Part shown: positions 16,471 through 28,189 of the stretch, in pieces
How the letters are laid out: the number at the start of each line of letters is the position of its first letter
Numbering within the stretch: position 1 is the stretch's first letter
Notes under the pieces: model-generated
Seen by the model: only the letters and a program-made list of their open reading frames with translations
Told to the model about the DNA's origin: nothing
The model's database searches: none
Position numbers and translations under genes: made by a program
Origin: a virus
Strand: one strand, 5' to 3'
Virus record (IMG/VR): IMGVR_UViG_3300010430_000146
Location: 1-42,157 of that record
Length of the DNA stretch: 42,157 nt

Positions 16471-17715
16471 TTACCTGAATAGTGGCTTGAACAATGACTT
16501 TTCGAGCGCTGAGAACAGGGAGCGGAACAGGCCTTCACCCTCAACCACCACGCTGCCATCCGAAACGGTTATGGTCCGGTCGAACTGATAGTCTTGGCCG
16601 GTCTCAGGAACAAACACGCCCAGCGTGACCGTGGTTACACCGTTGGCCACCGGGGTGGCATAGCTGGCAACGTCCTTGTGGAAGCCATCGTCAGCTTCCA
16701 GGGCGTTCCAGTTGATGGTGACCACAGAAGCGTTGGCATCCGCGATCACCTTCCACTCATAGGCCTGAGTGGTTGCGTAGGCGTTGGGATAGCTCAGCGA
16801 GTTTTCGCTGTACTCCGCCTCAGTCGCTGGGTGTGTCAGCTGGTCCCGGTCGTAGCTGTTGGCGTAAGCAATCGTTGCGCCAGCAGTGGTGCCATCAACG
16901 CTGACCACCAGATCGGCCGTGTCATCGTCGGCGATCAGGGGTGGTTCGTAGCTGTAGGTTTCGGTACCGGCCCCGGTGTTTTCAGAAACAAAGGTGATGT
17001 TGCTGCCGGCTTCACCGTTGATGGTGATGCCTGTTGGCGCATTCTCGTTGCCGGAGAGCGTGAAAGTGGCTGGCTGGGATTCGTCGGTTATGTCGTCGGC
17101 AGTGGTGGTGATTGAGGGACCTGAAGCACCCCAGGCTGCATTCAGATCAGCAAAGCCAGTAAGTGTTCCACTGTTACCCAGCGCGCCACTATCGTTTACA
17201 GCGTCCCCGGCTCCCTCATCAAGCAAATACAAACTTGAATTAGCCGGCGTCTCAAGATCAGTCAAAGCTACGGAATGCAGCACTGCACCTGCAGGAAGAA
17301 ACTCGCTTACCCCGCCGCGAGAGCCCAGGTGAGTTACCGTGTAGTCAACAAGCTCTTTTCCCGCATCGAAAGTGAGGGTTTCTGAAGGGCTCGCGGCGTC
17401 ATCAAAGTAAACTTCAACCGAATTGCTGGCCACCACCCGCAGAGCTATCTTTTTGACGACTTGGTACGCAACGCCAGTGCTCAGATACTTAAATTGGACG
17501 CTGGAACCCGCCCCTTCATAATTGAAAGCGTAGTTATCATTCCCAACGCGGACTGCACCTTTATTGTCATTCTTGCCAATCAATGAGGCAAAAACGTTGT
17601 AGCCAAGATCACCCGGGAACTCGAATTCGATTTCAACTTCAAAGTTCAATGGATTCGACGGTTTCCACGGCGAGACGAGAACAACCGTTCCCACTCCATC
17701 GAAATAGAGTGCCAT
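16471..17715 (-). CDS. LamG-like putative tail fibre/spike protein
   Basis: 414 residues. Residues 1-150 look like a LamG/concanavalin fold: MALYFDGVGTVVLV, LRVVASNSVEVYFDD and LDEGAGDAVNDSG resemble sugar-binding jelly rolls. The middle has Ig-like repeats (ATFTLSGNENAPTGITING). The last 20 residues are a repeat of L-F motifs (GLFRSLFSALEKSLFKPLFR), seen in some phage tail proteins as an anchoring tail. It overlaps the upstream gene by one base. It probably adds receptor or capsule binding, by inference. Confidence 0.55.
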   Translation of the reverse strand: MALYFDGVGTVVLVSPWKPSNPLNFEVEIEFEFPGDLGYNVFASLIGKNDNKGAVRVGNDNYAFNYEGAGSSVQFKYLSTGVAYQVVKKIALRVVASNSVEVYFDDAASPSETLTFDAGKELVDYTVTHLGSRGGVSEFLPAGAVLHSVALTDLETPANSSLYLLDEGAGDAVNDSGALGNSGTLTGFADLNAAWGASGPSITTTADDITDESQPATFTLSGNENAPTGITINGEAGSNITFVSENTGAGTETYSYEPPLIADDDTADLVVSVDGTTAGATIAYANSYDRDQLTHPATEAEYSENSLSYPNAYATTQAYEWKVIADANASVVTINWNALEADDGFHKDVASYATPVANGVTTVTLGVFVPETGQDYQFDRTITVSDGSVVVEGEGLFRSLFSALEKSLFKPLFR

Positions 17716-18893
17716 TAAATGCCACCTCTAATCAGGACGCCTTCTGAGTGCTGCGTATCGTCGTTAACAACAAATGCGTAGATTGAATCAGCCGGAGTAA
17801 AGTTGCCCTCTTCGACCTCAAATATAATGTCAGCTGGAACCCGGGATATTTGCTTCTGGACTACCAACTTAGTGCAGTCATCCATGATCGGAGCGTTACC
17901 CAGCTCAACCCTCTCAGCGGTGTTGTTCACATAGATACAGTCCACCCATGCCTCCATCCCCGGAATGCCAAGCTGCCCATCTGGGAGCATGGCGTAGGCG
18001 AAGTCCTCATTTCCGTATTCCACTTCTGTGCTATGGGCTTGTGGTGCTAACCAAGAAAGGGATGGATTTGCATCTCCAGCACTGGCGATGTAGGGGTGCT
18101 CAACCGGGATCTGCCTGTTCGTCCTATGTTCAATGATTCGGCCGAACCTTCGCCCGTTAGAGTTTGTAATTGGATCAGGCACTTCACCGTACATGACAAA
18201 CCTGTTCCAATTCTTGTTGAGCTCCCTGGGGGCTGCACTCCGAGACCAATCAGCGCCAGTGTCCGGGTCTATAAACGTGCCTTTATCATTGTCCCAAGCT
18301 TCAAGTCTTATGGCCGGGTTGTAGCGGTCGTCTACGCTGATGATCTGAAGATGGAGTTGTGGCTTTCCGTTGTAAGTGCCAACTCGACTACAGAGCCTGG
18401 ACAGTTTGACTTGAGGCCCGTACTCGGTGATATCCCAGTTATCCAGGTTCAGATATGCATGAAAGCTGATGAATAATTTCTTTGACCGGGCCGGAAGAAA
18501 AATATTCTGATTTCCTGCCAGAAATGACTGCTGGTCACCATCAACAAACTTTGCCTTCAGGCTTGCGCCAGACTTTGAAAATGACCTGGTAGTGTCGTAT
18601 CGATAGGTGTCCAATCCGGAATATCCCGAAGGAAGCCGGTTACCGTCAAAACCAACAAGCTTGTCGGCCAATTCTCCGTTTCTTGAGGGGTCACCAGTGA
18701 TGTATTCGACCTGCCCGTTCATTTCCGCGCTAAAGGAACCAGACAACGTTATTTCATTGCCTTGAGCGAACGTTCCGGAAAAAGAGTTTATAACCGGCGG
18801 CCCTATGGGTTCCGGATTCTGCCCCCCTTGCCCCAGCGTCAACAACAATTCACGAGTGGGCAAAATGCTGGCCGGAGATGCAGAAGTTGTCAT
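17715..18893 (-). CDS. Putative tail spike/virion protein, unknown family
   Basis: 392 residues. The N-terminal 25 residues carry TRELLLTLGQGGQNPEP, then an Ig-like strand set (NSFSGTFAQGNEITLSGSFS). Residues 90-330 form a large beta domain of a kind found in polysaccharide-binding proteins (KKLFISFHAYLNLDNW and NRFVMYGEVPDP). No signal peptide. It is the first of three genes read leftward between the lysis and packaging modules. Surface glycan binding is likely but not proved. Confidence 0.5.
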   Translation of the reverse strand: MTTSASPASILPTRELLLTLGQGGQNPEPIGPPVINSFSGTFAQGNEITLSGSFSAEMNGQVEYITGDPSRNGELADKLVGFDGNRLPSGYSGLDTYRYDTTRSFSKSGASLKAKFVDGDQQSFLAGNQNIFLPARSKKLFISFHAYLNLDNWDITEYGPQVKLSRLCSRVGTYNGKPQLHLQIISVDDRYNPAIRLEAWDNDKGTFIDPDTGADWSRSAAPRELNKNWNRFVMYGEVPDPITNSNGRRFGRIIEHRTNRQIPVEHPYIASAGDANPSLSWLAPQAHSTEVEYGNEDFAYAMLPDGQLGIPGMEAWVDCIYVNNTAERVELGNAPIMDDCTKLVVQKQISRVPADIIFEVEEGNFTPADSIYAFVVNDDTQHSEGVLIRGGI

Positions 18894-19050
18894 GAAGCAC
18901 CTCGTCGAGTTTGCATGGTGTGAGCTCGGCTTAGAGCGTCAGGTTTTTTTCCACGTTCAGCTGAAACATGAGCCTATGCGGTTGATTTCAAACGGTTGGC
19001 GCAACTCTTGCTGATTGCCAGTCTCTATGGAAATAACCAAGGACGACTAC

Positions 19051-19593
19051 ATGAAATGGTTAGTAGCTCTGATGGCTTTGCTGTCGTTTTCTGCTCAGGC
19101 AGCATTGATCGAATACACTTATGAATTGACGACAGCGAAGATTGGATCAAGCTCAACGGAGCTGCGGCCAGGGACAGCCCAAATCGTCGTTAACACCGCC
19201 ACCGAAACCCTTAACAAGTACTCGTACCAAGACGAGTTCGGCAATTTGATTAACTGGTCAGGCTCAGTAACACCGATCATTGCCTTCTTCAATTTCGGCC
19301 AACCAGGGTTCCAACTAATGTCAGTTGCCGCCACTATTGGCTTTCCGGGAACCCCATATTTTGGATTTTATCTGGAGCATAACCCGCAAATCTTTGAGGG
19401 GTCTGGGCTCAACTATCTGGACACAATCAATATTGAGTCCTATTTCGAGGTCAATCTCGACGATGACGGTTTCGAATACTGGGGCGACGTTAAGTCGGCA
19501 ACGAAACGCGTCATTTCAGTTCCCGAACCAGCCACCCTATCCCTGCTTGCGCTTGGTCTAGCGGCTATCGGTCTCAGGCGCCGACTGGTTTAA
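19051..19593 (+). CDS. PEP-CTERM sorted exported protein (cargo)
   Basis: 180 residues from the ATG at 19051; an in-frame ATG at 19027 would only add residues before the signal peptide. MKWLVALMALLSFSAQA is a signal peptide. The C-terminus is a standard PEP-CTERM tag: VPEPATLSLLALGLAAIGLRRR, consisting of the PEP motif, a membrane segment and arginines. Exosortase would remove this and pass the protein to the surface. No exosortase lies in the window, so the host must supply it. The gene runs opposite to all neighbours and its 3' end overlaps Rz1 by 36 bases tail to tail. These are signs of a transferred cargo gene. Confidence 0.85.
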   Translation: MKWLVALMALLSFSAQAALIEYTYELTTAKIGSSSTELRPGTAQIVVNTATETLNKYSYQDEFGNLINWSGSVTPIIAFFNFGQPGFQLMSVAATIGFPGTPYFGFYLEHNPQIFEGSGLNYLDTINIESYFEVNLDDDGFEYWGDVKSATKRVISVPEPATLSLLALGLAAIGLRRRLV

Positions 19594-19860
19594 CTGGTTG
19601 ACTCGCTCGGCCTGGTCTTTGTCCCAGGCCTGAATATCATCCTTGTCACCTTCGCAGGCCAGAGCCACGGCTTTCACGCGCTCAGCCCAGCCGGGGCACT
19701 GGTCAATCTGCTTTGAGGGCGCCGGCAGTTCACGGTCAATCAGATACTCTGCCGGTACCGCTTGCCGGACGTACTCGGTCCGGGTCAGATACTGTGTGCT
19801 GCCGCATGATGTCAAAAACACCATCAGGCCACAGGTACTCAGGGCCGCTACAAGGCGCAT
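19558..19860 (-). CDS. Rz1-like outer-membrane spanin lipoprotein
   Basis: 100 residues. MRLVAALSTCGLMVFLTSC is a lipoprotein signal with lipobox LTSC, making Cys19 the lipidated residue. Short mature chain, with PAPSKQ. It starts inside the Rz gene in another frame and runs past its end, the classic Rz/Rz1 arrangement. Together with Rz it fuses inner and outer membranes in the last step of lysis. It is longer than lambda Rz1 (60 residues). Confidence 0.82.
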   Translation of the reverse strand: MRLVAALSTCGLMVFLTSCGSTQYLTRTEYVRQAVPAEYLIDRELPAPSKQIDQCPGWAERVKAVALACEGDKDDIQAWDKDQAERVNQLNQSAPETDSR

Positions 19861-20173
19861 TCTTTACCAGCTCCTCCAGCTCGGCCACGGTCTGGGCCAG
19901 CTGATTACTCAGGTCTTGCTCTCGTTTGGCCCGGACAACCGAGCGATCGTTAAGCCAACGAATGTCGGCCTGAAGTTGATCGATCTGTTCCAGGTTCTTT
20001 GTGTTGGTGATATTGGCCTGTTCCATGGCTTGCGTCAGCTTGGCGTTTTCGGCCTTCTCGGCGTCAAGCGTCTTCATCAGCGCCCAGATAGAGCCGGCCA
20101 TCACGAATACCAGCACAGCAATACCGCCGGCCAGATAGGCGCCGGCTTTGGTTTTGAGGGCATGAAGGATCAT
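19736..20173 (-). CDS. Rz-like inner-membrane spanin
   Basis: 145 residues: a short cytoplasmic start, one membrane segment (AYLAGGIAVLVFVMAGSIWAL, about residues 12-32), then a coiled-coil periplasmic domain with KLTQAMEQANITNTKNLEQ and DLSNQLAQTVAELEELV. This is the standard i-spanin plan and length (lambda Rz 153). It overlaps the preceding small membrane protein by 4 bases and contains the Rz1 start. Confidence 0.85.
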   Translation of the reverse strand: MILHALKTKAGAYLAGGIAVLVFVMAGSIWALMKTLDAEKAENAKLTQAMEQANITNTKNLEQIDQLQADIRWLNDRSVVRAKREQDLSNQLAQTVAELEELVKNAPCSGPEYLWPDGVFDIMRQHTVSDPDRVRPASGTGRVSD

Positions 20174-20385
20174 TCCTTGCTCCGATGGTGCTGGTAGAAG
20201 GCAATCACCGTTGCCAGGATGCCGATAACGGCCACCACCACAGACCCGCCAGCCGGAGTCAACGTGCTCAGAACCTCGGGTTCCGTTGCCCGCTCAACAA
20301 CAACCGTGATCAGCACGATGGCCCAGATCAGAGTCAGCCGCCGAATCAGCTTGTGCTTTTCAATCAGGTCAACGAGATTTGCCAC
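20170..20385 (-). CDS. Putative holin, two membrane segments
   Basis: 71 residues with two hydrophobic segments (LTLIWAIVLITVVV and VVVAVIGILATVIAFY) separated by a short acidic-glycine linker, and a basic end (HHRSKE). This is class II holin topology. It lies directly before Rz in the lysis operon with overlaps on both sides. Holins form the inner-membrane lesion that triggers lysis. The partner with one segment could be the antiholin, or the roles could be swapped. Confidence 0.65.
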   Translation of the reverse strand: MANLVDLIEKHKLIRRLTLIWAIVLITVVVERATEPEVLSTLTPAGGSVVVAVIGILATVIAFYQHHRSKE

Positions 20386-20674
20386 GATACTGTGACTCCA
20401 GAGCGTCCAGCCGGGAATGAATCATCTGGTCGCGCAGTAGCTGCGTCTCTTTGGCGGCTTCGGCTTCACGCTTGGTTTGGTATTTGTCGAACCGCTCATC
20501 CATCGCTGCGATAGTCGATTCGATGTTCTGGATTCGGTTCAACACCACACCCATAGTGCCAGTGAGATCGGTGATCCCCTTCCCAACCCAGATAATCGCG
20601 GCAAGTATCAGGGCGGCAATAATGCTCTGTCCGTGACGTTCCCAGGTTGTCACTGAATCTCGGGTCATGGGCAC
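20369..20674 (-). CDS. Lysis-cassette membrane protein, one membrane segment and coiled coil
   Basis: 101 residues. One membrane segment (SIIAALILAAIIWVG, about 17-31) followed by a charged coiled coil (QNIESTIAAMDERFDKYQ). Such proteins occur beside holins in many prophages and may act as holin partner or antiholin. It overlaps the DUF5675 gene by 10 bases and the two-segment holin by 17 bases. Confidence 0.6.
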   Translation of the reverse strand: MPMTRDSVTTWERHGQSIIAALILAAIIWVGKGITDLTGTMGVVLNRIQNIESTIAAMDERFDKYQTKREAEAAKETQLLRDQMIHSRLDALESQYRGKSR

Positions 20675-21120
20675 TCCATCAGGAAGGGGCGGATTTCAAG
20701 GCGCCAACTCTCGCGGCCATCAAGAGCACCCATAACCTGAGCGAATGCCATGCGGGATGACGCGACGCCGGACTTCCATTGGCCGTCAGATGGGTCTTTG
20801 ATAATCATGTATTGGAGGCCAACACCGATGCAGCCCTCAAAATTCCGAGGCCAGTTGCCGGGGTGAATCATAATGAACGTGCGCCCAGGCACATGAGTGA
20901 CTTCCCAGCCTTCCAGATAGTCACCGCCGGACGTTCGCTCAACTACTGGAGAGCGACGCTTTTCCAGCGTGTAGATGCCATCAGGAATGCATGACTCGAA
21001 CGGCTTATTGCCCAGCCAGGGACGCTCGACTGTAAAAACCACTTTGCCATTGGGCAGCTTGAGGCGACCAAACGTGCCATCGGGCGCGTAAGAGAACCGC
21101 TCCAGAATGACTTTCGGCAT
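20665..21120 (-). CDS. DUF5675 protein, candidate endolysin
   Basis: 151 residues from the ATG at 21120, which has GGAGG just upstream; the frame open to 21147 runs through a terminator. The motif IHPGNWPRNFEGCIGVG holds a His and a Cys set as in YkuD-type L,D-transpeptidase or related cell-wall enzymes, and DUF5675 members have this pattern. It is the first gene of the lysis operon, and no lysozyme, amidase or SAR endolysin is seen elsewhere in the window. It is therefore the best endolysin candidate. No signal peptide is visible, so a holin would be needed to release it. The reaction is inferred. Confidence 0.6.
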   Translation of the reverse strand: MPKVILERFSYAPDGTFGRLKLPNGKVVFTVERPWLGNKPFESCIPDGIYTLEKRRSPVVERTSGGDYLEGWEVTHVPGRTFIMIHPGNWPRNFEGCIGVGLQYMIIKDPSDGQWKSGVASSRMAFAQVMGALDGRESWRLEIRPFLMECP

Positions 21121-21135
21121 GGCAACCTCCAGAAA

Positions 21136-21160
21136 TAAAAAAGCCACCGCAAGGGTGGCA
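21136..21160 (-). terminator. Intrinsic terminator just before the lysis operon
   Basis: Perfect 6-bp stem GCCACC/GGTGGC with a 5-base loop, then six T on the minus strand. It lies about 15 bases before the DUF5675 start, so lysis transcription must pass it from upstream or start after it. Confidence 0.75.
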
Positions 21161-21199
21161 GGGGTCTGCTGGCGCGCAGATCGTCAGGTACGCAGTAAC

Positions 21200-21226
21200 A
21201 AAAAACCCGCCATTTGGCGGGTTTTG
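21200..21226 (-). terminator. Intrinsic terminator after the second PEP-CTERM gene
   Basis: Perfect stem ACCCGCC/GGCGGGT with flanking A and T runs, so it can work in both directions. It follows the PEP-CTERM stop by about 13 bases. Confidence 0.75.
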
Positions 21227-21238
21227 TAGGTCTTCAAT

Positions 21239-21898
21239 TCACTTTCGGCGCCTGGCCGTTAAACCAACAAGGCCTAAACCAAGGAGAGCCAGCGTAGAAG
21301 GTTCCGGAACAGAGACCGGCTGAGCTGAACGGACCAGAGCAACGCCCATGTTTGGATCTGCATAGTCCAACGGCACATAGGAAAGGTTTAAAACAGCGGC
21401 ACCGTCAAAGTTTGCATTCGGGATGTACACCTGCCCCCACCTAACGGGATTGTTTTGATCCGCATTGGTCCCGTAAACCACTCGCGAGAATACTTGATCA
21501 TCCCGATAACTGTATTCCCAAGTCTTTCCGAAAAACTGGACAAAATTTTGAGCCAACGCAATTTCCTGAGCGTCAAACCGGCCCAAAATCACATCCTGAA
21601 TGACATTGGCATTCGGATCCCAAGAATAAAAACCACCACCAAAACCCCATTGACTGAAAAGGCCAGTCATGTCTGCCAGAGACGCCACTCTCCAACCAGC
21701 CTGGTAGTAGGAACTGTTAGTGTCCGTTACGTCGTTCCAGCTTAGGTTTGTCGTTGCATCCCACTGCAACCACTCCAACCCACCACCAGTTACGATATTG
21801 GTGTTGGTATCCAGCGTATAGCCGTTATGGGTAATCAAACTCGCCTGCGCCCCGCCTCCCACGGACAGCGCGAACAGAAGTGCAATCATCCTTTTCAC
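21239..21898 (-). CDS. PEP-CTERM sorted exported protein 2 (cargo)
   Basis: 219 residues from the GTG at 21898, chosen because GGGGAGAG lies six bases upstream; the frame is open to 21949 without such a site. MKRMIALLFALSVGGGAQA is a signal peptide. The body has GLEWLQWDATTNLSW and GWRVASLADMTGLF, a pattern seen in many PEP-CTERM proteins. The tag VPEPSTLALLGLGLVGLTARRRK ends the protein, with PEP, membrane segment and arginine cluster. It is bounded by terminators on both sides, like a moron. No exosortase in the window. Confidence 0.85.
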   Translation of the reverse strand: MKRMIALLFALSVGGGAQASLITHNGYTLDTNTNIVTGGGLEWLQWDATTNLSWNDVTDTNSSYYQAGWRVASLADMTGLFSQWGFGGGFYSWDPNANVIQDVILGRFDAQEIALAQNFVQFFGKTWEYSYRDDQVFSRVVYGTNADQNNPVRWGQVYIPNANFDGAAVLNLSYVPLDYADPNMGVALVRSAQPVSVPEPSTLALLGLGLVGLTARRRK

Positions 21899-22087
21899 AA
21901 GAACTCTCCCCGAATCTGTGTTTTTGGTTGTGCAGCCTCGGTAAAGCAAATATCAATCCGGTGTCGGTAGCTGCCTGAAGCCAAAACAAAAGTTCGGGGG
22001 CGGGATTACACCCCGCGAGAGATCCGTTAAAAAACTCGACATAAAGCGAGATTGGCTGGGCTCAATCTAAAAACAGGCGAAAGAGCA

Positions 22088-22121
22088 CAAAAAAACCGCC
22101 AGCTCTTTCGAGGGCGGTTTC
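22088..22121 (-). terminator. Intrinsic terminator downstream of the Q-like gene
   Basis: Stem AAACCGCC/GGCGGTTT with a second short inner stem (CTC/GAG), then seven T on the minus strand. It is the first of three terminators before the lysis genes. The remaining sequence of the 21899-22175 gap shows no gene. Confidence 0.75.
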
Positions 22122-22151: not shown

Positions 22152-22179
22152 AGTGTATTCGTTTGTGACCGGTTGTCAA
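22152..22179 (-). promoter_or_regulatory. Late promoter candidate (PR'-like)
   Basis: On the minus strand a perfect -35 TTGACA (22179-22174) overlaps the stop of the Q-like gene. After 16 bases follows TACACT (22157-22152) as a 4/6 match to -10. A terminator begins about 25 bases downstream of the expected start. This copies the lambda arrangement Q, pR', tR'. No experiment supports it here. Confidence 0.5.
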
Positions 22180-22676
22180 GCAACCTGACTGATCTGTTGT
22201 AGAACATTCTCGATCTGCTGATAAGCGCGGCTCACCCGCTTACGGTAGGTGTCCTGGGACAGCCCCAAAAGCTCGGCGCAGTATGCTGTGGTGTAGGTGA
22301 TCTCCAGCCGCTTCTCATTGAGAGGGTCGATGGCCACAACCCGAGTTTTTCCGCGCAGGAGCTTGTCCAGGCACACCGCCTCCTGGTGGTCTTCCGCCAG
22401 CTGGCCGACGATGCTGTCTGCCTCAACCATCCGGCTGGTCACTTCCTGGAAGCGGATACGATCGACTTTCGCGGCCAATGTGCAGAAGCCACTGAAACCA
22501 GAACCCCGCGGGATCTCTCCGTGCGACTGGTAAATGCCCAGAATGTGCCGCCCCTCATGGGCGATATCATCAACCCGGCGGATAGCCAGCAGGTAATCGA
22601 TGAAATTATCAACCACGGCCTCGGCCTTTGCCCGCAACTCTCTCTGCTCTGCCGTCTTCCGGTTCTGCTCAGCCAT
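22176..22676 (-). CDS. Q-like late regulator with C-terminal HTH
   Basis: 166 residues from MAEQNRK at 22676; longer starts up to 22730 lie inside the upstream gene. The N-terminal part is a charged helix. The C-terminal 60 residues have AELLGLSQDTYRKRVSRAYQ, a clear helix-turn-helix like that of sigma region 4 or phage antitermination regulators. It is the last gene of the replication/nin block and sits just upstream of a promoter and terminator, the place of lambda Q. Antitermination is inferred from position; a plain activator is possible. Confidence 0.6.
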   Translation of the reverse strand: MAEQNRKTAEQRELRAKAEAVVDNFIDYLLAIRRVDDIAHEGRHILGIYQSHGEIPRGSGFSGFCTLAAKVDRIRFQEVTSRMVEADSIVGQLAEDHQEAVCLDKLLRGKTRVVAIDPLNEKRLEITYTTAYCAELLGLSQDTYRKRVSRAYQQIENVLQQISQVA

Positions 22677-22905
22677 TCGATTCGCCCTCGCCCTTTCTCT
22701 CATTGATCCAGTCAGCCCGCCAGCCAACATACCTATAATCGTTCACTTCGCTTTTGTACTGCCTTGCCGCATTCCTGGTGATGGATTCGTAGACTGCTGG
22801 CGGATACTTCTTCTGCAACTCCGCCAGCCTGGCCTTGTAAGCTTCACGGTCTCCGGTGTGCGCCAGATCGATCAACTTGTTGGCCTCACGATGCTCTGGT
22901 CTCAC
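22669..22905 (-). CDS. Small nin-region protein
   Basis: 78 residues, strongly charged, mostly helical (REAYKARLAELQKKY), with a tryptophan-bearing end (VGWRADWINE). No recognised domain. It overlaps the nuclease-like gene upstream by 20 bases and the Q-like gene downstream by 8. Such small early genes often modulate host functions. Confidence 0.6.
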   Translation of the reverse strand: MRPEHREANKLIDLAHTGDREAYKARLAELQKKYPPAVYESITRNAARQYKSEVNDYRYVGWRADWINERKGEGESNG

Positions 22906-26983: not shown

Positions 26984-28189
26984 CTAGGCGGTCACTTCCG
27001 CCCGTTTCGGTGCCAACACTTCCCTGACTCCGTTATGGTCAGCAGGGCTCACCACTCCATTTACTTCCAACTCATCCATGAGATGGCTCGCCCGGTTGTA
27101 CCCAATCTTGAAAACGCGCTGGATTCTGCTGATCGATGCTCGCCGGGATTCGGTAACGAGCTGCACGGCTTCGAAGTACAGCGGGTCAGCGCCCTCCCCA
27201 TGCACAGGCATGACGGCCGATGTGTCCGGCCCGGATGCCATATCCACTCCGATCACCAAGGGGTCATCCTCAACAATCGCAGACCGATCCTCGCCGCCCA
27301 GCGCTTCCAACAACGCCGGAATCATTCGCTCCAGCTCCAGAGTCATCAGGCAGAACCCGGCGTCGAACTTCGCCAAAGCGTCGTCGGCATCAACGTCATC
27401 CAGCTGGTCTTTCAGCGTGTCGCCAAACTTCACGCGGGTGATCGCCAGGGTTTCATCCAGGCAGAAGGAAACGTTGTCATCCCAGGTCAGGGCCACTTTG
27501 GTGACCTGCATCCCGGCTTCCAGGTGGTTTCGTACTTCGTCGGCCTTCAGGTCCAGGCCGCGGGCAATCACCTTGCCGCCGTCTTCTGAGGGGTCAGCCA
27601 TCCAGCAGTCGGCGCCAAGTACCGCCACATCGGGCAGATCAATGGTTTCGTTAATCCAGCCGGTAAAAGTGAAAGCCGGGGCTTGCTCAACAACAGGCGG
27701 GCGCACAGGCAGAGAGCCGAGCGACTTGCGCAGCGTGCTGGCGAAATCTTCCGCCGCTTTGGCGCTACCGGCGTCAACGATCAGGTAACCATTTCTCGCG
27801 GACAGGTAGCCGTAGGTCTTGCGGTTACGCGGGAATGCCTGGGGCAACATTTCCAGAATCACCTGTTCCCGGATCTCGTCTTTCTCTTTCCGGCGCACCT
27901 TCCGGCCCTGCTCGATCTCGATGGCTTCGGCGCGCTCTTCAACGAATTCCTTGACCACCGGGCCTGGCAAAATCTTCTCCTGGTGCTGAAGACAGATCAG
28001 CAGATCACCATTGGCGGCGTGCACCAGCTGTTCACTGTGCTTGCCCAGCGGCGTACACCAGCCGCGGCGGTTCTGCTCTTGTGGACCACACGGCTTGAAG
28101 GCATCCGCCTGCAGTTTTTCCTCCAGCAGCTCGGCGGTGATCTCGATTGGCCGGGTGAAACGGAACATTCGGATATTTCTGAAAAACAT
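26984..28189 (-). CDS. rdgC: RdgC domain fused to FtsK-gamma DNA-binding domain
   Basis: 401 residues. Residues 1-310 align along the whole RdgC family, including KPCGPQEQNRRGW, QHQEKILPGPVVK, FASTLRKSLGSLPV and FDAGFCLMTLELE. RdgC forms rings on DNA and limits RecA. From 335 the chain becomes an FtsK gamma winged helix: DPLYFEAVQLVTESRRASIS, FKIGYNRASHLMDELE, HNGVREVLAP. This domain reads KOPS (GGGNAGGG) in FtsK. The linker is acidic/glycine rich. Usual RdgC proteins are about 300 residues and lack this tail. Frame and spacing are intact, so the fusion is not a frameshift artefact. It is in the early leftward operon. Confidence 0.85.
   Translation of the reverse strand: MFFRNIRMFRFTRPIEITAELLEEKLQADAFKPCGPQEQNRRGWCTPLGKHSEQLVHAANGDLLICLQHQEKILPGPVVKEFVEERAEAIEIEQGRKVRRKEKDEIREQVILEMLPQAFPRNRKTYGYLSARNGYLIVDAGSAKAAEDFASTLRKSLGSLPVRPPVVEQAPAFTFTGWINETIDLPDVAVLGADCWMADPSEDGGKVIARGLDLKADEVRNHLEAGMQVTKVALTWDDNVSFCLDETLAITRVKFGDTLKDQLDDVDADDALAKFDAGFCLMTLELERMIPALLEALGGEDRSAIVEDDPLVIGVDMASGPDTSAVMPVHGEGADPLYFEAVQLVTESRRASISRIQRVFKIGYNRASHLMDELEVNGVVSPADHNGVREVLAPKRAEVTA

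Follow-up and report, generated by a model that had tools for sequence, protein, structure and literature searches.

Two PEP-CTERM proteins of a temperate Marinobacter phage as likely lysogenic-conversion cargo with host-type sorting and control signals

Why should a temperate phage carry two proteins tagged for a surface-sorting system that it does not itself encode? The question is raised by IMG/VR virus record IMGVR_UViG_3300010430_000146, a single record of 42157 base pairs (bp) that was analysed at its full length and is called the window below. Two of its genes, PEP1 and PEP2, encode proteins with PEP-CTERM tags, and the lysis genes sit between them. The answer that we consider likely is that both genes are lysogenic-conversion cargo, captured from host chromosomes along with their control units and wired into the sorting and regulation of the host. 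The genes concerned are as follows.

19051-19593, plus strand: PEP1, a 180-amino-acid PEP-CTERM protein with signal peptide, beta-rich ectodomain and tag
19516-19584, plus strand: PEP-CTERM tag of PEP1, nearly constant across phage types
21239-21898, minus strand: PEP2, a 219-amino-acid PEP-CTERM protein with a GTG start

We observed that PEP1 and PEP2 both have the PEP motif, hydrophobic helix, basic end and N-terminal signal peptide of PEP-CTERM proteins. The tags scored 30.6 bits (PEP1) and 36.7 bits (PEP2) against PF07589, which has a curated cut-off of 20.7, and 24.9 and 30.0 bits against TIGR02595, with a cut-off of 16. The original prediction, made from the letters of the window, had described two such proteins with signal peptides and full tags. 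This was confirmed, and its outer coordinates, 19051 and 21898, are the starts of PEP1 and PEP2; the window has no PEP-CTERM tag besides theirs. Signal peptides were called by inspection of the n, h and AxA regions. PEP1 has a ribosome-binding site (AAGGA) 7 nucleotides (nt) ahead of its ATG, the N-terminus MKWLVALMALLSFSAQA^A (the caret marks the signal peptide cut) and the C-terminus VPEPATLSLLALGLAAIGLRRRLV. PEP2 has the N-terminus MKRMIALLFALSVGGGAQA^S and the C-terminus VPEPSTLALLGLGLVGLTARRRK; its signal peptide has a normal start because the GTG at 21898 is used, which has a good ribosome-binding site (GGGGAG) and with which a KR n-region is gained.

Neither protein had a family in PHROGs or a match in a tblastn search of the phage collection, and PEP1 was absent from the plasmids searched. 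The AlphaFold2 model of PEP1 had a beta-rich ectodomain and a C-terminal helix. A fold search with this model gave no match in the PDB at E <= 0.001 (the best was LolA-like, at 0.004, with a template-modelling score of 0.25) and a single weak match to an uncharacterised phage protein; as modelled, the fold gives no function for PEP1, and its structural neighbours are uninformative. The model of PEP2 alone was discarded, its predicted local distance difference test (pLDDT) score being 36.

We searched the 42157-bp window for an exosortase and found none, as had been claimed. The window represents a temperate siphophage of the marine bacterium Marinobacter and has genes for a terminase, portal, head protease, capsid, tape measure, repressor and integrase. 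Its nearest sequences were Marinobacter phages or prophages, namely phage PS3, L004 (about 96% DNA identity across 9 kilobases) and L005. The last is part of a prophage, and both ends of its record map within contig 1 of M. nauticus DSM 50418; by this mapping, a prophage related to the window is integrated in the chromosome of that strain. Of 124 Marinobacter genomes searched, 111 yielded an exosortase and 115 PrsR. M. nauticus DSM 50418 has an exosortase with a DUF3485 domain, PrsR about 7.5 kilobases away, RpoN, and five PEP-CTERM genes, one of them supplied by the prophage. These results support the earlier claim that the two proteins depend on the surface-sorting system of the host.

The original prediction was thus supported for host sorting and, as described below, for the moron-like layout; it overlooked a host sigma-54/PrsR-type box ahead of each gene and the conserved slot of PEP1. 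In the box upstream of proteobacterial PEP-CTERM genes, a 17-nt motif whose last bases are TTTACA is followed, after a spacer of 32-92 nt, by a -24/-12 sigma-54 motif (PMC1569441), and the distribution of PrsK, PrsR and PrsT matches that of the box (Haft et al. 2006, PMC1569441). In Aquincola, a PEP-CTERM gene was shown to be RpoN-dependent (PMC9850573). Our box model was a two-block matrix trained on 29 non-redundant sites ahead of PEP-CTERM genes in Marinobacter chromosomes; phage sequence was kept out of the training set. The gaps in these chromosomal sites group near 43, 52, 64 and 76 nt, about one helical turn apart. The following elements were identified in the window.

18938-18953, plus strand: PEP1 enhancer-like motif 1, GTCAGGTTTTTTTCCA, PrsR-type
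18997-19012, plus strand: PEP1 sigma-54-type promoter, TGGCGCAACTCTTGCT, gap of 43 to motif 1, the best box site of the window
21945-21960, minus strand: PEP2 sigma-54-type promoter, CGGATTGATATTTGCT, the second-best box site of the window
22025-22040, minus strand: PEP2 enhancer-like motif 1, GTCGAGTTTTTTAACG, gap of 64

When both strands of the window were scanned, the two highest scores fell upstream of PEP1 (34.6) and PEP2 (29.4), both correctly oriented, and the third site scored 18.6. In 150 dinucleotide shuffles of the window the maximum score averaged 16.7 and reached 29.3 at most, below that of either gene. The PEP1 box is clear, since 34.6 stands against this shuffle maximum. The PEP2 box is hard to ascribe to chance, as the second-best site of the window lies ahead of its only other PEP-CTERM gene. 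Motif 1, a spacer within 32-92 nt, the -24/-12 motif and the proper orientation were thus found at both genes, strongly for PEP1 and more weakly for PEP2. The M. nauticus strain has boxes on its four chromosomal PEP-CTERM genes and on the prophage gene, with scores of 28.0-41.6 (one of the four was in the training set). In eight other phage loci the best box site belonged to the slot gene every time, with a gap of 43 every time.

The chromosomal Marinobacter homologues of PEP1 (L076 and L077) and PEP2 (L078 and L079; L018 is the same gene as L078) share full-length similarity, the tag and the box with the phage genes. Identity is about 30% for PEP1 and 38-41% over full-length alignments for PEP2. 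The box gap is 43 in the PEP1 relatives and 64 in the PEP2 relative L018, as joint capture of gene and promoter would predict. L076 and L077 differ from the phage gene in setting, being placed among ordinary chromosomal genes, with no prophage of the window type seen around them. Scanning for sigma-70 sites gave nothing upstream of PEP1 and nothing near PEP2, where the sole minus-strand match (22179-22152) lies past the upstream terminator. Since PEP1 and PEP2 carry the host sigma-54/PrsR-type box, their expression is predicted to track the host regulon, and not lysogeny alone.

The cargo reading supposes the following course. Neither a sorting enzyme nor a dedicated regulator comes with the prophage. 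What each gene does have is a host PEP-CTERM box, with a PrsR-type enhancer followed by a sigma-54 promoter at helical spacing. With host PrsK, PrsR and RpoN on, the prophage genes would be transcribed alongside the host PEP-CTERM genes. The proteins would be exported via Sec, and their tags would be recognised by the host exosortase, with release or anchoring in the exopolysaccharide-rich surface. During lysis, late transcription should oppose PEP1, because PEP1 is antisense to the late operon. The tags, the boxes, the slot, the insertion and the host machinery of a relative's host are observed; judging from these sequences, a dormant prophage is probably able to place new proteins on the cell surface when the host program is on.

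The slot of PEP1 was followed across IMG/VR with a DNA pattern for the tag core LGLAAIG.RRR. The pattern returned 12 contigs, all 12 with a PEP-CTERM-type gene. A recognisable homologue of the window Rz, Rz1, lysin or Q-like gene was found in the fetched stretch of nine and lay on the expected, opposite strand; the stretches from the remaining three reached no more than tail, terminase or nearby genes. In Marinobacter phage vB_MalS-PS3 (MF959999, PMC8424206), where the slot gene was located via its position and not by tblastn, the layout is the same (an antisense tagged gene, the same box, a gap of 43), and the difference from the window lies in another ectodomain and the tag VMEP. The PS3 gene (L009, 32554-33102; ATN93354.1) is annotated as hypothetical and from an internal start, hence without its signal peptide. 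Three types of ectodomain occupy the slot: type A in the window, L004, L005 and L088; type B in PS3, L086, L089, L092 and L094-L097; and type C in L087 and L091. Identity in the tag is far above that in the ectodomain, and tag and box are near-constant across the three types. Type B was found with very different terminases (TerL identity to the window of about 22% in PS3 and L096 and about 78% in L094 and L095); therefore the gene moves between phage backbones. The ratio of nonsynonymous to synonymous substitution rates (dN/dS) among type A members was 0.19-0.27 for the whole gene (dS saturated) and 0.09-0.15 in the tag, and type A slot genes are under purifying selection. Comparison of the window (18850-19593) with L004 showed almost no change in PEP1 and its promoter (the gene differs at 3 nt, with the protein unchanged) amid aligned flanks that differ by about 4%, which hints at recent exchange of this stretch. 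No empty PEP1 site was seen, the slot being occupied in all comparable relatives; in prophages G113 and G015, found by TerS, the slot surroundings had no PEP-CTERM motif.

The exchange of ectodomains with tag and box retained in related phages fits selection for surface variation. A narrower version, compatible with the cargo reading, is superinfection exclusion: the ectodomains would mask or modify the receptor that related phages use, and competition among phages would lie behind the exchange of ectodomains. The constant tag beneath exchanged ectodomains and the predicted surface location speak for it. However, no known exclusion protein gave a convincing structural match, and a constitutive shield would less likely be placed under a host regulon. 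We regard this version as rather unlikely, though phage exclusion as a consequence of PEP1 and PEP2 is possible.

PEP2 lies in an insert of about 890 bp, extra in the window by alignment to L004 and L005 and flanked by the terminator on the lysin side and that of the regulator gene at 22176. The insert contains a terminator, PEP2, and the PEP2 promoter and enhancer.

21191-22082, unstranded: insert with PEP2, its control region and its terminator; L004 and L005 lack it
21202-21225, minus strand: strong PEP2 terminator, inside the insert and downstream of PEP2
about 22090-22121, minus strand: terminator of the preceding regulator gene, upstream of PEP2; part of the phage backbone and common to the empty-site relatives

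PEP2 is thus an extra unit between genes that adjoin in L004 and L005, and a promoter and terminator of its own are both predicted from the sequence. This supports the moron-like organisation that had been proposed from one gene antisense to its neighbours and another between terminators; PEP1 is indeed a plus-strand gene amid minus-strand genes. Elsewhere in IMG/VR, PEP2 was found in a single contig, 100% identical.

Boxed PEP-CTERM genes also occur outside this phage group. Two degenerate box patterns run over IMG/VR gave 51 stretches, nine of which were Marinobacter slot loci. Five further contigs (L107, L113, L114, L131 and L133) had a Pfam PEP-CTERM match in the downstream gene, with box scores of 39-44, high values being expected since they were selected by pattern. 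Neighbouring portal, terminase or capsid genes confirmed the phage nature of L113, L114 and L133; by these sequences, boxed PEP-CTERM genes are carried by at least three unrelated phages. L126 (no Pfam tag match) and L132 (C-terminus beyond the locus) were left out of the count. Most of the other 42 loci lacked a downstream PEP-CTERM gene and were put down to chance.

These data bear on whether the genes are neutral passengers, that is, host PEP-CTERM genes acquired by illegitimate recombination and briefly kept, with no benefit to phage or lysogen. The finding of PEP2 in one phage population only would fit this. However, the PEP1 slot is kept over many phages of differing backbones, with boxes, intact reading frames and a low dN/dS, and boxed PEP-CTERM genes recur in unrelated phages; we consider neutral carriage improbable.

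The remaining alternatives concern the lysis region, whose features are given below.

17715-18893, minus strand: structural gene candidate divergent from PEP1, with the PEP1 box in the intergenic stretch between both
19558-19860, minus strand: Rz1-like outer spanin, with a 36-nt overlap with the PEP1 3' end
19736-20173, minus strand: Rz-like inner spanin
20665-21147, minus strand: lysin candidate, phrog_1501, which is without function in PHROGs
22176-22730, minus strand: regulator candidate of 184 amino acids, with a weak sigma-70 region 4 match below the cut-off; by position, likely a late-gene (Q-like) regulator

The genes might lie by the lysis cassette because they act in virion release from exopolysaccharide-coated cells, and spanins do adjoin the gene in related phages. 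We find this very improbable: PEP1 is antisense to the late operon, both genes have predicted host-type sigma-54 promoters instead of late promoters, and terminators shield PEP2. That the tag is conserved as a by-product of its antisense overlap with Rz1 and not for sorting is hardly credible, since L088 and L094 keep the tag without the overlap of 36-51 nt that most phages have between the slot gene and the last lysis gene, and tag codons beyond the overlap are conserved with synonymous changes.

Several observations weigh against the cargo reading itself. The check for a host exosortase found one in the genus and in the M. nauticus strain with the related prophage; the window's own host is inferred from its close relatives. 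Two chromosomal PEP1 relatives (L076, 4540-5094, and L077, 10646-11200, in G089 and G026) are accompanied by PrsR with no exosortase match, possibly owing to incomplete assembly or a divergent sortase. In type B tags, M or I replaces the first P of PEP (VMEP in PS3 and VIEP in L086, versus VPEP), and these tags fall just under the Pfam cut-off. The PEP2 box taken alone is marginal (29.4 against the shuffle maximum of 29.3), and its motif 1 has TTTAAC instead of TTTACA. The motif-1 seed pattern was composed after the phage upstream regions had been viewed, and therefore the matrix alone is independent.

Among known phage genes, lambda bor resembles PEP1 in position: it is found directly past Rz/Rz1, runs antisense to the late genes and is expressed in the lysogen, where its product is a surface protein. 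Unlike PEP1 and PEP2, it is a lipoprotein without an exosortase tag or a PrsR/sigma-54 box. The PEP-CTERM/exosortase system with its PrsK/PrsR/sigma-54 box (PMC1569441) shares with our genes the tag, the signal peptide, the single-gene unit and the order of motif 1, spacer and sigma-54 motif 2. In contrast to that system, PEP1 and PEP2 are phage-borne, away from exopolysaccharide loci, with short intergenic control regions and no exosortase or Prs genes nearby. Lysogenic conversion of the cell surface and PEP-CTERM sorting are each already known. Phage cargo with a host regulon promoter, a host sorting tag and exchanged ectodomains was unreported in the open-access literature that we searched, outside which most subscription papers fall.

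Cargo of the kind proposed for PEP1 and PEP2 would need no enzyme and no phage promoter, plugging into the sorting and the regulon that the host uses for exopolysaccharide-associated proteins. As a first guess, the effect may be aggregation or a change in the matrix, because elsewhere floc formation involves a PEP-CTERM protein (PMC9850573). If the cargo reading is right, matrix and aggregation proteins in the biofilm and floc formers of the environment are subject to editing by prophages, and the box would be a simple sequence test for such cargo. It is quite possible, and we propose it only tentatively, that temperate phages of PEP-CTERM bacteria as a class carry exosortase-sorted proteins in the host PrsKR/sigma-54 regulon, whose ectodomains can be swapped and whose tag and promoter stay constant, and so diversify the surface or matrix of the lysogen on the schedule of the host.

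Two further observations were made. The gene at 26984-28189 of the window encodes a recombination exonuclease whose C-terminal part matches FtsK/SpoIIIE-like phage families. In the prophage of G113, a single long frame (L074, 5500-8133) combines, by eye, a formylglycine-enzyme-like variable domain with a reverse transcriptase-like part, which is suggestive of a candidate diversity-generating element.

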